21,312 nucleotides of DNA from a virus: positions 1 through 21,312 of IMG/VR virus record IMGVR_UViG_3300017749_000167, one strand, 5' to 3'. A program made the translations under genes and the position numbers. The stretch's first letter is position 1, and every line of letters starts with the position of its first letter. Below the pieces are notes generated by a model. That model did not search any database and was not told the origin of the DNA. It was given only the letters and a program-made list of their open reading frames with translations. This document shows, one piece after another, positions 8,832 to 18,228 of this stretch.

Positions 8832-9031
8832 AGCTGTGTTCCTTCGATCTTCTCACACTTGAAGCGTTTAGGTAGAACCGTACCTTTTTCTATTTCTACG
8901 ATAGCGTCACCCATCTCGTAGGCTCTCTGTTCACAGATTTCAAAGGTCGCGTATGGTCCTCTAGTGTCGCTATACTCCCAGCAGTCAGTCGGTGACGCGA
9001 TTGCACACGCCAATACTAATGTCTTAAACAT
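8828..9031 (-). CDS. Small exported cysteine-containing protein
   Basis: A 67-residue protein starting MFKTLVLACAIASPTDCWEY, a short hydrophobic N-terminus that could be a weak signal peptide or anchor, followed by a charged domain with TRGPYATFEICEQRA. Four cysteines (9, 17, 33, 59) could form disulfides in the periplasm. The V-L-A-C around Cys9 is a poor lipobox because Leu occupies the -2 position. It overlaps the previous gene by eight bases and the next by four. Its place suggests a lysis or envelope role; the function is unknown. Confidence 0.68.
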   Translation of the reverse strand: MFKTLVLACAIASPTDCWEYSDTRGPYATFEICEQRAYEMGDAIVEIEKGTVLPKRFKCEKIEGTQL

Positions 9032-9482
9032 TGTTGGCCTCTAGTAAGATTATGATAATGATGTAAAGGCTAAAACCTGCCAGTGAAAGACACACCAGCC
9101 AGTAGAAAATGGATAGCAATGCGTCTTGTCTTTTCATGGCCTTGAGCCTTGCTTGCTTGGCTGCTTCAACTCTTGCTGTTCGAGCTTCGCCACAGAACTT
9201 AACGTAAGCCTGATACATCCCAGCTCTGCCGTAGAGCTGCATGTCAGACCTAAGTTTGTTCTCTAGTTCTCTGACCTTCTCTTGAGCCATGAACTCTTGA
9301 AGGTCGGACTTGCTGCCATCGAGGTTAGTGCCTTTGGATCGGCAAGCCTTATCGACAGCATCTTTAGCGTTAGTAAAATCAGCAACGGCTTTACCAGCTT
9401 TGGTTATCTCGGCACCGTTCTTAACCACCTTCGATATTATTGCGTAGGCGGCATTAGCCGCTGCCAGACTTTCTAAAATCAT
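9024..9482 (-). CDS. Coiled-coil protein with C-terminal membrane anchor
   Basis: A 152-residue protein. Residues 1-120 are mostly helical and charged (MILESLAAANAAYAIISK ..., FMAQEKVRELENKLRSDMQ, GRAGMYQAYVKF) with coiled-coil character. A strongly hydrophobic segment follows at about 122-147 (LLSIFYWLVCLSLAGFSLYIIIIILL), ending in EANNV. Proteins starting MILE.LAAANAA with a GR.G.YQ motif recur near fibre and lysis genes of marine podoviruses in my recollection, without known function. The single C-terminal anchor is opposite to a typical Rz spanin, which has an N-terminal anchor. It overlaps the DUF1289 gene by 29 bases and the next gene by eight. Confidence 0.75.
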   Translation of the reverse strand: MILESLAAANAAYAIISKVVKNGAEITKAGKAVADFTNAKDAVDKACRSKGTNLDGSKSDLQEFMAQEKVRELENKLRSDMQLYGRAGMYQAYVKFCGEARTARVEAAKQARLKAMKRQDALLSIFYWLVCLSLAGFSLYIIIIILLEANNV

Positions 9483-14713: not shown

Positions 14714-15346
14714 TTAGTTCGTATTGTAGGACGACTGGTAATCAGTATATGTGTAAGTCGGTTGAATGGACTGGATGCCGCCATTCATTTCTTGGTCGTG
14801 TGCTTGCTCTTGAATCTCAGGCAGGAACTGATTGTACTTTGTCTCAAACAGAGGCGCACGTTCATCTAGGTAGAAGTCAGCGGCGTAGGTGAGTGCAGCA
14901 TAGATGATCAGGTCATGAGCTACAGCGGCTAGTGTGTTTTCATCTGTGTTCTGAACCATCGGCGCAAACTCAGCATAATAGTACAAAACTAGACTACCTG
15001 ATGCTGGTTCTGGATGCAGAAACAGGTTTTGCTGCTGACGGATAAATGTAGTTGGACTTCCTTGGATCGGACTAACTGCTACAGCTCTGTACTTCGACAT
15101 CGGTATGCGTTGAAGCTCAGTGTCTTCGTAGTACAATGAGATGATCTCTAAGAAATCACTTGGAAGCACTACTGAGGTTGTACGGCTTGTGATTGCATAT
15201 GTGCTCAAGTTCTCGTTAAGAGGAGTGCGGAGCTGACGCTGAATACGAGCGATACCTTGGTCAATAAATGTTTCAGTTAGGGCTGCGGTTATGTCGCTTC
15301 TGTTGAGCACGTTATTGAAGTGACTTTTGATATCGCCATAATTCAT
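14714..15346 (-). CDS. Head-tail adaptor protein (SU10-type)
   Basis: A 210-residue protein beginning MNYGDIKSHFNNVLNRSDIT, with FIDQGIARIQRQLRTP, VLPSDFLEIISLYYEDTELQRI and YAALTYAADFYLDERAPLFETKYNQFL. The pattern of an N-terminal helical bundle, a central beta segment with P.DFLE and a C-terminal A...Y..DE....FE.KY helix matches phage adaptor proteins that sit under the portal (SU10 adaptor, gp6-like). In the virion it would join portal to tail. It lies between the small basic genes and the long fibre gene. The C-terminal tail (YTYTDYQSSYNTN) is Tyr/Ser/Asn-rich and may contact the nozzle. Confidence 0.82.
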   Translation of the reverse strand: MNYGDIKSHFNNVLNRSDITAALTETFIDQGIARIQRQLRTPLNENLSTYAITSRTTSVVLPSDFLEIISLYYEDTELQRIPMSKYRAVAVSPIQGSPTTFIRQQQNLFLHPEPASGSLVLYYYAEFAPMVQNTDENTLAAVAHDLIIYAALTYAADFYLDERAPLFETKYNQFLPEIQEQAHDQEMNGGIQSIQPTYTYTDYQSSYNTN

Positions 15347-15349
15347 AGC

Positions 15350-15505
15350 TTATGCCCTTCCAGTTTTAGGTTTCTTTGCAGTCTTTGCTGCCTTCTTAAA
15401 CGCTGCTGCTGTTGGTCTTCCTTTGGCTCCAGCCTTTGCCATCTTCTCACCAGAACCAGCGGCAATACGTTTACGTTTTGCATGTATGTTTCTATAGAGG
15501 CTCAT
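15350..15505 (-). CDS. Small basic protein (51 aa), conserved in marine podoviruses
   Basis: Reads MSLYRNIHAKRKRIAAGSGE and continues to a Lys/Ala-rich end (FKKAAKTAKKPKTGRA). I remember very similar MSLY.NIHAKRKRIAAGSGEKM proteins from marine podoviruses, of unknown function. The ATG shares one base with the stop of the previous small gene (TAATG) and the adaptor starts three bases after its stop, so it belongs to the late operon. The tail resembles histone H1-like termini, which suggests nucleic-acid contact; that is inference. Confidence 0.85.
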   Translation of the reverse strand: MSLYRNIHAKRKRIAAGSGEKMAKAGAKGRPTAAAFKKAAKTAKKPKTGRA

Positions 15506-15624
15506 TACGCCATCCCCTTCTTAGGCTTCTTGTTCTTATTGGAAGCGATCTTCACAGCAGCTTTCTTTGCAGCAGCTTTACCAGCCTTCGTGTATGCGTA
15601 TTTCTTTCCACCAACATTAGGCAT
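15505..15624 (-). CDS. Small basic protein (39 aa)
   Basis: Reads MPNVGGKKYAYTKAGKAAAK, then a Lys/Ala-rich tail ending KNKKPKKGMA. Short proteins beginning MP.VG.K.YPYT..GKA.AKKAA are familiar to me from marine phage late operons, without a proven role. Start and stop both lie in TAATG overlaps with neighbours, which strongly supports translation despite the tiny size. Nearly one residue in three is lysine, with no acidic residues. Confidence 0.82.
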   Translation of the reverse strand: MPNVGGKKYAYTKAGKAAAKKAAVKIASNKNKKPKKGMA

Positions 15625-15854
15625 TATGATCTCCGTGATTTCTTACCGCTGCACTTCCACTTAGCGCGAGACAGTCTTAGGGGTGAGTTTGGGTTCTTAG
15701 CAGCTTTGGTATGCTTCTTCATCTGCCCATCAGATCGAGCACAGTAGCTGTCACCAGCAGATGTGCCTGACTTAACTTTATAGCCTTTGGCACCATACCT
15801 GACGGTCTTGTTGCCGACTTTCTTGCTAAACTTCTTTGGACCTGAGTAAGCCAT
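15624..15854 (-). CDS. Small basic protein (76 aa), DUF6321-like
   Basis: Begins MAYSGPKKFSKKVGNKTVRY, then GAKGYKVKSGTSAGDSYCAR and NSPLRLSRAKWKCSGKKSRR. The SYCAR...NSPL.LSR.KWKC.GKKS pattern is one I remember from many marine phages (DUF6321-like); the name is from memory. Two cysteines (near 38 and 68) could form a disulfide or bind metal. Highly basic. It shares one base with each neighbour through TAATG overlaps. The role is unknown; a virion-internal or head protein is possible from its position after the capsid gene. Confidence 0.84.
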   Translation of the reverse strand: MAYSGPKKFSKKVGNKTVRYGAKGYKVKSGTSAGDSYCARSDGQMKKHTKAAKNPNSPLRLSRAKWKCSGKKSRRS

Positions 15855-16159
15855 TAGATACTCTTTTCTGTTGCCATGAAGCCATCTAGGTTTTCTGCTT
15901 TCAGCTTCTTGATGATTTCCTTGAAAGGCACTGAGCCATCCATGATGTCAAAGCCTTCCTTCTTCCACTTCTCGACAAAGATGACAGGTATCGAAGCTAC
16001 ATGCTGGAAGTCACCTTCGAGCTGGTTCGTACTGTGGTTCCGTTTGTCTTTGAGGTCGTCAAGAAAGCCTTGGCTAATCTGTTGGCTGTCTGTTCTAACG
16101 AGGTTGCCAGCCTCTTCACTAAAGTCGTTTTGGACTCCAATTAAACCAATCTTATTCAT
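15854..16159 (-). CDS. Conserved phage protein downstream of the capsid gene
   Basis: A 101-residue protein beginning MNKIGLIGVQNDFSEEAGNL. It contains GDFQHVASIPVIFVEKWKKEGFDIMD and IIKKLKAENLDGFMATEKS. The HVASIPV..VEKW..EGFDI and LKAE.LD.F..T segments recur in phage head-gene clusters in my recollection, function unknown. A strong AAGGAG lies six bases before the ATG, immediately after the terminator hairpin, so translation restarts independently here. Its stop shares one base with the next start. Confidence 0.83.
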   Translation of the reverse strand: MNKIGLIGVQNDFSEEAGNLVRTDSQQISQGFLDDLKDKRNHSTNQLEGDFQHVASIPVIFVEKWKKEGFDIMDGSVPFKEIIKKLKAENLDGFMATEKSI

Positions 16160-16178: not shown

Positions 16179-16206
16179 AAGCCCCCAGAGTTTCCTCTGA
16201 GGGCTT
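16179..16206 (-). terminator. Rho-independent terminator after the capsid gene
   Basis: On the minus strand AAGCCCTCAGAG, loop GAAA, CTCTGGGGGCTT form a 12-position stem with one mismatch, followed by TTTTC. It lies between the capsid gene and the 101-residue protein gene, inside the late operon, so it probably terminates only part of the transcripts and gives more capsid than downstream mRNA. No promoter can fit in the 19 bases between it and the next ATG. Confidence 0.83.
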
Positions 16207-16278: not shown

Positions 16279-17163
16279 TTAAGTCAGGGCATCAATCTGT
16301 CCTGATCCTAGTGGATTCTTGTGCATGAGGCCGAGTTCCCCGACAACCATATGGGTGTCTGAGTCGCCTGTCTTTGCGAGTAATGTACGCGCAAACGGAC
16401 GAAGTGATGCTGTGCGCCACATTGACGGATCAAGCAAGAAAGCATGAGTAGTCATCTGGTGGCGGTTAAGAGTCACACGGTACTCACCGAATGGGCTGAC
16501 GTACAAATTCACGGCATTTGTGAGTGTTTTGTTACCATCATTGAACTCACGGGTACGACCAGCGGCACCTGTGAAACCAGCAATGATAAGTGAGTCAGCA
16601 GGTTTGACCATAAGAATGGTTGCGTCACCACCGTTGTTGTACACAGCCTGACCAGTAGCTGTAATCATAGCTTCTGTAAGTGCGGCTGAACCGCCAGCGG
16701 TTGTGTTACCTGCACCAATCAACTGATCGGCTGAATCCATCTCACGGGCTGTTGTAGCGTTACCAGCTACAGTAGCATTAGAAGCACCAACAAAGGCGTA
16801 TTCTACGTCTTTCTTGATTTCTTTTAGGGCTTTAGATAACTGATATGCAGTTTCCTTCGCTCTACCGTAGGCTTTTACAGCATCAGCGGTGGCTGATACT
16901 TGGAAAGTCTTTTGTAGGATTTGGGTGTTACCGTTGATCATTGTTGTTGGGATTGCTGTACCTGCTGATGCAGTGAATCCCTCAAGCTGTGCGTTTGATG
17001 CGGCAGCAGCAAGTGAGTCAGTCATGTAGCTATACTGTCGCGCATGAACCTTCTCAGTTTTGATCATTGAATACAGAGGTGTATCAGTAGGTGTGATATC
17101 ACTAATGATGTTAGATACGTCCTCAGCGAGTCCGATCTGTTCGTAGGTCTTGTAGATTGCCAT
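16279..17163 (-). CDS. Major capsid protein (DUF5309/SU10-type)
   Basis: A 294-residue HK97-fold capsid protein. Typical features are the start MAIYKTYEQIGLAEDVSNII with SDITPTDTPLYSMIKTEK soon after, GNTQILQKTFQVSATADAVKAYGR and AYQLSKALKEIKKDVEYAFVG in the spine-helix region, then ILMVKPADSLIIAGFTGAAGR and a C-terminal MVVGELGLMHKNPLGSG. This set matches the DUF5309 capsid family (SU10-like) as I know it. It follows the scaffold gene after a 39-base gap; AAGGG lies about 12 bases before the ATG, and GGGAAAACCC could form a tiny hairpin there. Two hairpins lie downstream, consistent with high expression. It is shorter than T7 gp10 and not similar to it. Confidence 0.92.
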   Translation of the reverse strand: MAIYKTYEQIGLAEDVSNIISDITPTDTPLYSMIKTEKVHARQYSYMTDSLAAAASNAQLEGFTASAGTAIPTTMINGNTQILQKTFQVSATADAVKAYGRAKETAYQLSKALKEIKKDVEYAFVGASNATVAGNATTAREMDSADQLIGAGNTTAGGSAALTEAMITATGQAVYNNGGDATILMVKPADSLIIAGFTGAAGRTREFNDGNKTLTNAVNLYVSPFGEYRVTLNRHQMTTHAFLLDPSMWRTASLRPFARTLLAKTGDSDTHMVVGELGLMHKNPLGSGQIDALT

Positions 17164-17202: not shown

Positions 17203-18228
17203 TTATGTCTCCCAGTTACCTAAGATTGCTGCTGCAATATCGTCTAAGTCCCTACCACCGTTTGCGACCATGTTCTGCCTAGCCTTCTCAGCTTTCGCCT
17301 TCGAGCTAGTCTTATTGTCTGGTGTACGTTTGCTTCGTAGCACCTTCTTGGTGGCTGCACTTTTCTTCTTAACCAAAGCTACCTTCTTACCTTCGTCATA
17401 TAGACGAGCTTTATTAAGCAGTATGATCACGTTTGGATCAACATACTGATCGACATCGGCTGCTGGTAAACCTTGGGTAACAGCATAGCTTCTTATGTCA
17501 TCATAGAGCTTGTTATCCCAGTCAGGTAACTTCTCTTTCAGCGTAGATACACACTCTTGAGCTGCTTGCTTCTGTGTGGTCTGTTGCTGTTCTTTGATGT
17601 CTTTGTAAAAAGCATCTGCTTCCTCATTAAGAAACTTCAAGTCGTTGAAGGCATCTTGAGCTTCTTTTCTGAGTTGTGCGAAGTCTTCTGTTTCCATAGT
17701 TTTGCTGGCAACAAGCATATCCACTTCACCATAAGGCTTGTAGCGTTCTTGAGCTTTTTCCAACATCTTTTGAAACACAAGATGGTTCTTTTCGATAGCT
17801 GCATCAGCGTCTTTGCGCTGGGAAGCAACGAGCTGAGACTTTTGAGTAAGACTAGCCTCTTGTCCTGCAAGCCGTTTAAGATCAGCCAAAGATACCTTCT
17901 GGGTCTCACCTGATACGACAACTTCGATCTCAGTGTCATCAGACAGGGCAGTTTCTTCAACTGCATCTTCATCATCTGAATCATCTTCTTCAGTATTGTC
18001 ATCATCGGTTTCATCCTCATCAGGGTCTTCTTCTTCCTCATCGGGTTCGTCAGTTTCGGTAATCTCTTCTTCCTCAACAATGTCCGTAGTCCCTTCTGGA
18101 TCATCTTGAGGTGCCTCTGCTTCGTCTTCGGATGGCTCTTCAGCGTCTTCCCACTTAGCTAAGATGGCTTCTTCTGGATCGAGGGGAAATCCCTCATTTA
18201 AGTTGTTGCTTTCTTGCACGTTTGACAT
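17203..18228 (-). CDS. Capsid scaffolding protein
   Basis: A 341-residue protein with an extremely acidic N-terminal third (residues 25-95, long Glu/Asp runs), a short beta segment (TEIEVVVSGETQKVSLADLKRLAG), a long helical and coiled-coil middle (about 130-225) and a Lys-rich C-terminus (GKKVALVKKKSAATKKVLRS). This polarity, the helical middle and the position between portal and capsid genes identify a scaffold; in known phages the basic C-terminus binds the capsid protein. The last residues DLDDIAAAILGNWET are hydrophobic/acidic. Five bases separate it from the previous gene, with AGAGG upstream. No protease motif (Ser-His) is seen, so it is probably not a scaffold-protease fusion. Confidence 0.88.
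   Translation of the reverse strand: MSNVQESNNLNEGFPLDPEEAILAKWEDAEEPSEDEAEAPQDDPEGTTDIVEEEEITETDEPDEEEEDPDEDETDDDNTEEDDSDDEDAVEETALSDDTEIEVVVSGETQKVSLADLKRLAGQEASLTQKSQLVASQRKDADAAIEKNHLVFQKMLEKAQERYKPYGEVDMLVASKTMETEDFAQLRKEAQDAFNDLKFLNEEADAFYKDIKEQQQTTQKQAAQECVSTLKEKLPDWDNKLYDDIRSYAVTQGLPAADVDQYVDPNVIILLNKARLYDEGKKVALVKKKSAATKKVLRSKRTPDNKTSSKAKAEKARQNMVANGGRDLDDIAAAILGNWET

Follow-up and report, generated by a model that had tools for sequence, protein, structure and literature searches.

In bacteriophage T4, the internal proteins IPI, IPII and IPIII are small, basic and linked to head assembly, with about 300 copies of each basic internal protein per head that bind DNA at low salt; the 10 N-terminal residues of IPIII direct proteins into the head, and gp21 cuts after L/I-x-E (PMC9026906, in the portions available). 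The T4 record gives the start of ipII and ipIII as MKTYQEFIAEA. Searches of the literature on cyanophage capsid-targeting and internal head proteins, and on small basic marine podovirus proteins, brought up the two protein modules described below in none of the titles or abstracts shown, and the literature searched, in the parts of it available, held no description of either module and no paper on DUF6321 (Pfam PF19846).

The window, by which we mean the whole stretch of 21,312 nucleotides analysed here, is a 21.3-kb virus record from an uncultured phage with a portal (Pfam E 4e-185), capsid and adaptor of the SU10 type, and none of the matches listed from INPHARED phages exceeds about 40% identity to its capsid protein. 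The minus strand reads portal, a 90-aa gene, scaffold, capsid, a terminator-like hairpin, four small genes of 101, 76, 39 and 51 aa, and adaptor (Table 1), with no protease gene between the portal and capsid genes of this record, which is a fragment. The first-pass annotation had described three consecutive small genes of 76, 39 and 51 codons joined by TAATG overlaps, and this was confirmed: all three are minus-strand ORFs with exactly those coordinates, and the TAA stops of the 101-, 76- and 39-aa genes each give their last A to the next ATG, while the 51-aa gene and the adaptor gene meet without overlap (TAA-GCT-ATG). Shine-Dalgarno-like purine-rich stretches precede the starts, within the upstream gene where genes abut (GGAG 5' of the 39-mer, AAGAAGGGG 5' of the 51-mer, and a weak one 5' of the 76-mer). 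The three proteins are very basic, as had been noted, with pI values of 10.7, 10.6 and 11.9 and computed net charges of about +19.5, +11.5 and +14.6 for the 76-, 39- and 51-mers, respectively; the accompanying description as Lys/Ala-rich suits the 39- and 51-mers but not the 76-mer, which is Lys/Ser-rich (16 K, 11 S, 7 A). The 101-aa protein has a pI of 5.1 and is retained in relatives without the basic genes, and therefore lies outside the basic set.

Table 1. Features of the basic gene cassette and its flanks in the window.
Feature	Position	Strand	Evidence
76-aa basic protein, DUF6321-like module, conserved C-A-R ... W-x-C core	15624..15854	-	ORF; Pfam below cut-off; HMM matches; dN/dS
39-aa basic protein, MPNVGGKK.YTKAGKAAAKKA type	15505..15624	-	phrog_33179 E 1e-4; dN/dS 0.27; slot contents of 25 cassettes
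51-aa basic protein, module SLYxNIHAKRKRIAAGSGEKM...	15350..15505	-	phrog_16028 E 7.4e-22; hhalign to myovirus version
101-aa acidic protein, head of cassette	15854..16159	-	phrog_3982 E 1.5e-9; relatives
Terminator-like hairpin, capsid gene/cassette gap, 12-pair stem, T-rich tail	16179..16206	-	Pattern match only
Major capsid protein, SU10 type (flank)	16279..17163	-	Pfam SU10_MCP E 2.6e-77
Head-tail adaptor, SU10 type (flank)	14714..15346	-	Pfam SU10_adaptor E 3.9e-24
Scaffold-like protein, first 110 residues very acidic (net -51)	17203..18228	-	phrog_9013 E 4.5e-17; computed charge

Judged by their conservation, the 76-, 39- and 51-aa ORFs are real genes under selection. Pooled dN/dS against the window was 0.12 for the 76-mer (9 of 55 relatives in the usable range), 0.27 for the 39-mer (10 of 15 usable) and 0.18 for the 51-mer (19 of 35 usable), compared with 0.12 for the MCP and 0.07 for the adaptor, values that are non-independent because all pairs share the window and the contigs are related. 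The one-base stop/start overlap was retained in 23 of 27 loci at the 76/39 junction and in 22 of 26 at the 39/51 junction, overlapping contigs included. When relatives were fetched by the capsid protein alone and presence was tallied by hand in the 40 loci with both capsid and adaptor genes, the 51-mer was found in 25, the 76-mer in 17 (all 17 also carrying the 51-mer) and the 39-mer in 6, with all three absent from 15. That close relatives might lack the reading frames had been put forward as an outcome that would speak against virion proteins; some do lack them, and this makes the basic genes accessory without disproving that they encode virion proteins.

Comparison of relatives indicates that the basic genes are part of a swappable cassette. 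Between the window and locus L092, identity was 97% for the capsid protein, 99% for the 101-aa gene, 80% for the 76-mer, 81% for the 51-mer and 91% for the adaptor, and 48%, which amounts to no real similarity, in the slot of the 39-mer. Of 25 distinct cassettes, 12 have a relative of the 39-mer in the slot that separates the 76-mer from the 51-mer, and 8 have a basic peptide of about 28-31 residues with four cysteines. One cassette has a basic peptide of 13 residues there, one has another basic peptide followed by a 39-mer, and in 3 the slot is empty. The four-cysteine peptide starts MTPCKTC... or MKPCKGC... (for example at L092 2490-2600 and L144 4040-4140, and in six more cassettes), and direct tblastn with the 39-mer, run with the low-complexity filter on, gave no match. 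As a separate observation, the capsid gene of several close relatives (L090 601-932, L094 2793-3042, L105-L108, L117, L132, L156, L205 and L214) is interrupted by inserts of about 0.2-0.6 kb that leave it in 2-3 frames, a pattern expected of an intron or homing insert, and the window copy is intact.

A cassette with such exchangeable content, seen both in L092 and among the 25 cassettes, would suit ejected counter-defence or host-takeover peptides, which would be carried in the head and act in the cytoplasm instead of condensing DNA, like IPI*, the mature T4 protein, a 76-residue inhibitor of a restriction enzyme. The T4 internal proteins have indeed been described as a diverse defence set with a common CTS (PMC3012670, in the portions available). 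We nevertheless regard this explanation as unlikely, since the 51-mer, unlike host-specific inhibitors, varies very little between phages that infect cyanobacteria, Pelagibacter and Roseobacter, and an HMM of window-type 76-mers found no similarity to T4 ipII or ipIII.

The 51-mer belongs to a very common family. Its residues 3-46 align with positions 6-49 of the 50-position profile of PHROG 16028, a clear full-length match, and no function is annotated there or for PHROG 11180, in which both modules lie within one protein. At least 592 relatives were confirmed in IMG/VR, the consensus matched 155 phage records, mean column identity was 71% over 69 sequences, and the podovirus and myovirus alignments matched each other with an hhalign probability of 98.8% (E 4e-17). 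Named carriers are phages of the three host groups mentioned above, among them HTVC022P, S-B28, CRP-810 and CRP-118. We surveyed the neighbourhoods of the 80 best IMG/VR loci out of these at least 592 relatives, and in 57 of them a DUF6321-like ORF accompanies the 51-mer, always on its strand and in 47 cases within 300 bases; by hand count it precedes the 51-mer in 37 loci and follows it in 20. Large neighbours in the 80 loci were mostly scaffold, portal, terminase and capsid genes; the nearest large upstream gene matched a head assembly PHROG in 27 of 69 cases, with portal, terminase and capsid PHROGs also matched, and psbA was the commonest single downstream match (14/61). In S-CRES3 the two modules are the adjacent genes gp109 and gp110, and P-SCSP1u has the order capsid, DUF6321 84-mer, 51-mer relative, adaptor. 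The 51- and 76-mers are stand-alone versions of two modules that recur together in the head-gene clusters of unrelated marine podoviruses. The cultured podoviruses Syn5, P-SSP7 and HTVC019P gave no match, so the set is dispensable.

The interval between capsid and adaptor genes, occupied in both the window and P-SCSP1u, might also be expected to encode minor structural components, such as cement or head-completion proteins, located in the head shell or at the portal-adaptor junction. That role appears very improbable, given that the genes are lost in the 15 relatives that retain capsid and adaptor, that the cassette changes position, preceding the capsid gene in HTVC022P and the terminase in CRP-212 and lying close to the lysozyme gene in CRP-810, and that the available text of the P-SCSP1u structure paper names models of the capsid, portal, adaptor, nozzle and fibre only.

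The 76-mer has in common with DUF6321 the Cys-Arg ... Trp-x-Cys core; it differs in scoring 16.4 bits, below the gathering cut-off of 28.5, and in an extra basic tail past the last Cys, whereas ACG-2014i_93, S-SCSM1 gp029 and S-CREM2 gp137 exceed the gathering score. An HMM built only from 12 window-type 76-mers and the window (E-values for 1000 sequences) matched S-TIM5 (7e-33), HTVC023P (3e-10), P-SCSP1u (9e-6), S-CREM2 gp137 (3e-5) and ACG-2014i_93 (8e-4), and did not match P-HM2_112, S-SCSM1 gp029, HTVC022P_32 or S-CRES3_110. S-SCSM1 gp029 was reached by iterated HMM and Pfam (module E 3e-22), and the P-HM2_112 module was the seed of the cyanophage HMM. In the CAR + W-x-C core, both Cys were present in 98 of 103 scorable module ORFs, neither in 5 and a single one in none (the pattern classed 97, inspection by eye settled 6 of the other 10, and 4 partial ORFs were dropped), and at least 2 of the losses look independent by sequence; this all-or-none pattern suggests a disulfide or other paired role. 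AlphaFold models of the 76-mer (pLDDT 75.5, two strands, three helices) and the 51-mer (pLDDT 88.0, pTM 0.48, two helices) are too small to argue from, and the best BFVD fold matches of the 76-mer are unnamed phage proteins, with DUF6321 proteins and the S-SCSM1 virion protein also among the matches but at E >= 0.34. Elsewhere, S-B28 gp25 (L004 4419-4772) carries DUF6321 fused C-terminal to another stretch, which we take to resemble a piece of an ADP-ribosyltransferase, and Pfam finds DUF6321 only; the 152-aa protein of the window (9024-9482, minus strand) resembles by eye CRP-212 gp46 (153 aa; L002 6484-6945), which sits directly before the DUF6321 gene of CRP-212.

Both modules also occur in fused form in T4-like cyanophages. 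Larger proteins with DUF6321 at their C-terminal end are P-HM2_112 (297 aa), encoded between the terminase genes gp16 and gp17, S-SCSM1 gp029 (517 aa), and S-CREM2 gp137 (490 aa), whose gene is likewise flanked by terminase genes. The 51-mer module is internal to P-HM2_164 (438 aa; match to residues 343-384 with E 7e-15) and to S-CAM3 gp077 (404 aa), both encoded in the cluster adjoining the cytidyltransferase gene. ACG-2014i_93 (141 aa, between terminase genes) unites both modules in one protein, as do 19 IMG/VR ORFs. The fused 51-mer module is preceded within 7 residues by [LI]-x-E in 24 of 30 distinct contexts (background 6%); before the fused DUF6321 module the strict [LI]-x-E occurs in 27 of 71 contexts (background 5%) and the broader [LIVMFC]-x(1-2)-E in 65 of 71 (background 13%), and since the contexts come from related phages, binomial p-values overstate these enrichments. 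CTS-like starts were found in 11 of 94 module ORFs and in 3 of 481 other ORFs, including MKNFREFRELAEA and MRDYKEFKELCEA, N-termini that resemble the start of T4 ipII/ipIII; S-CREM2 gp137, S-SCSM1 gp029 and P-HM2_112 start without a CTS-like sequence. P-HM2 itself encodes gp21 and gp22. Such starts and the protease-like sites, which liken the cyanophage carriers to the T4 internal proteins, are confined to cyanomyovirus-type relatives; the window proteins begin at the module and differ from the T4 proteins in having no CTS and needing no cleavage.

Two of the fused proteins have been reported in virions. ORF137 of S-CREM2 (108049-109521), the DUF6321 module of which has a Pfam E of 3.5e-10, is listed in the virion Table 3 with 4 unique peptides and 4.1% coverage, which need not include the module, and the authors caution that co-purification is possible (PMC10665884, in the portions available). 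For S-SCSM1, 45 virion proteins were identified by mass spectrometry (PMC9602691, in the portions available), and the record labels gp029 'virion protein'. We infer that this label reflects mass-spectrometric detection, because the NMNAT record bears the same label and NMNAT is named in the available text of the S-SCSM1 paper. The same label is borne by S-SCSM1 gp279 (L230 11627-11836), a 69-aa stand-alone basic protein of the SKAQQRFMGMVHAV type. We take gp279 to be DUF3008-like, and it is possibly another member of the mini-protein kit. Neither published nor computed evidence places a stand-alone 51-mer or 39-mer, or the window peptides, in a virion.

Late proteins that stay inside the cell and bind phage DNA or RNA during replication or packaging would account for the terminase genes among the neighbours (at 51-mer loci, in CRP-212 and in ACG-2014i) and for chromosomal homologues of the 51-mer, which were matched in 10 of 81 genomes of one bacterial genus and mean that the module is not exclusive to virions. 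The module was seen in genomes and one MAG assigned to Variovorax and Xylophilus (L428, L400, L408, L456 and L457), and in L428 the gene after it looks by eye glycosidase-like and not phage. The RIAAGSG stretch of the 51-mer (window 15350-15505), which we take to resemble the RNA-binding motif of Ffh, would point the same way, but SRP_SPB matched only 18 of 69 members with a best E of 0.056, below significance, and the motif is absent from the myovirus version; the Ffh M-domain likeness was kept as a lead only. We consider a purely intracellular role quite improbable, as DUF6321-tailed proteins are reported in virions of S-CREM2 and S-SCSM1, according to the parts of those papers available, and protease-like sites precede the modules in fused proteins.

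Instead, the three basic window proteins probably lie alongside the DNA inside the virus head, and our main reading, to which we give a probability of about 0.58, is that they are internal head peptides, probably ejected. The first-pass suggestion of virion proteins that may condense DNA or be ejected thereby gains indirect support, from the DUF6321-tailed proteins reported in virions of two cyanomyoviruses, from the T4-like head-targeting and prohead-protease-like sites in proteins that contain the modules, and from the association of the 51-mer family with head and packaging genes. Small basic proteins made late would be taken into the prohead or head, where their lysines and arginines would hold them against the packaged DNA, and would be delivered with the genome into the next cell. 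Contact with DNA is suggested by their charge, by the T4 precedent and by the Comamonadaceae chromosomal homologues of the 51-mer, which have long Lys- or Arg-rich tails (up to 43% K+R). The proposed likeness of the 39- and 51-mers to histone H1 tails proved to be one of lysine-rich composition, with no homologous domain: no Pfam match appeared at E up to 1, no PDB sequence match was significant (the best for A3 was 5mfb_A, YIII(Dq)4CqI, E 0.055) and no PDB fold match was significant, leaving the basic proteins without solved relatives by PDB sequence or fold. Electrostatic recruitment by the acidic scaffold was also unsupported, because scaffolds are just as acidic in relatives that lack the basic genes as in those that carry them (38 loci), which gives no specific recruitment signal.

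How the peptides are made may differ between phage types. In T4-like cyanophages, the modules would be produced as beads on a string within long head proteins, CTS-bearing or otherwise, and a gp21-type prohead protease would likely cut these bead strings apart in the prohead; in the window podovirus, each module is encoded by a separate mini-gene that has a ribosome site and a coupled start to itself. We tentatively propose, at somewhat under even odds, that unrelated head lineages of ocean phages share a mobile mini-protein kit delivered by these two routes, protease-cut bead strings and translation-coupled mini-genes, with the TAATG cassette as the operon counterpart of a head polyprotein. 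Such a kit would link T4-type head proteolysis to phages in which no prohead protease is seen. If the window peptides are internal head peptides, several conserved unknown families, including the common and unnamed 51-mer family, would gain a first function; the finding would show what marine podoviruses pack with their DNA and would supply small natural tags with which proteins could be loaded into phage heads.
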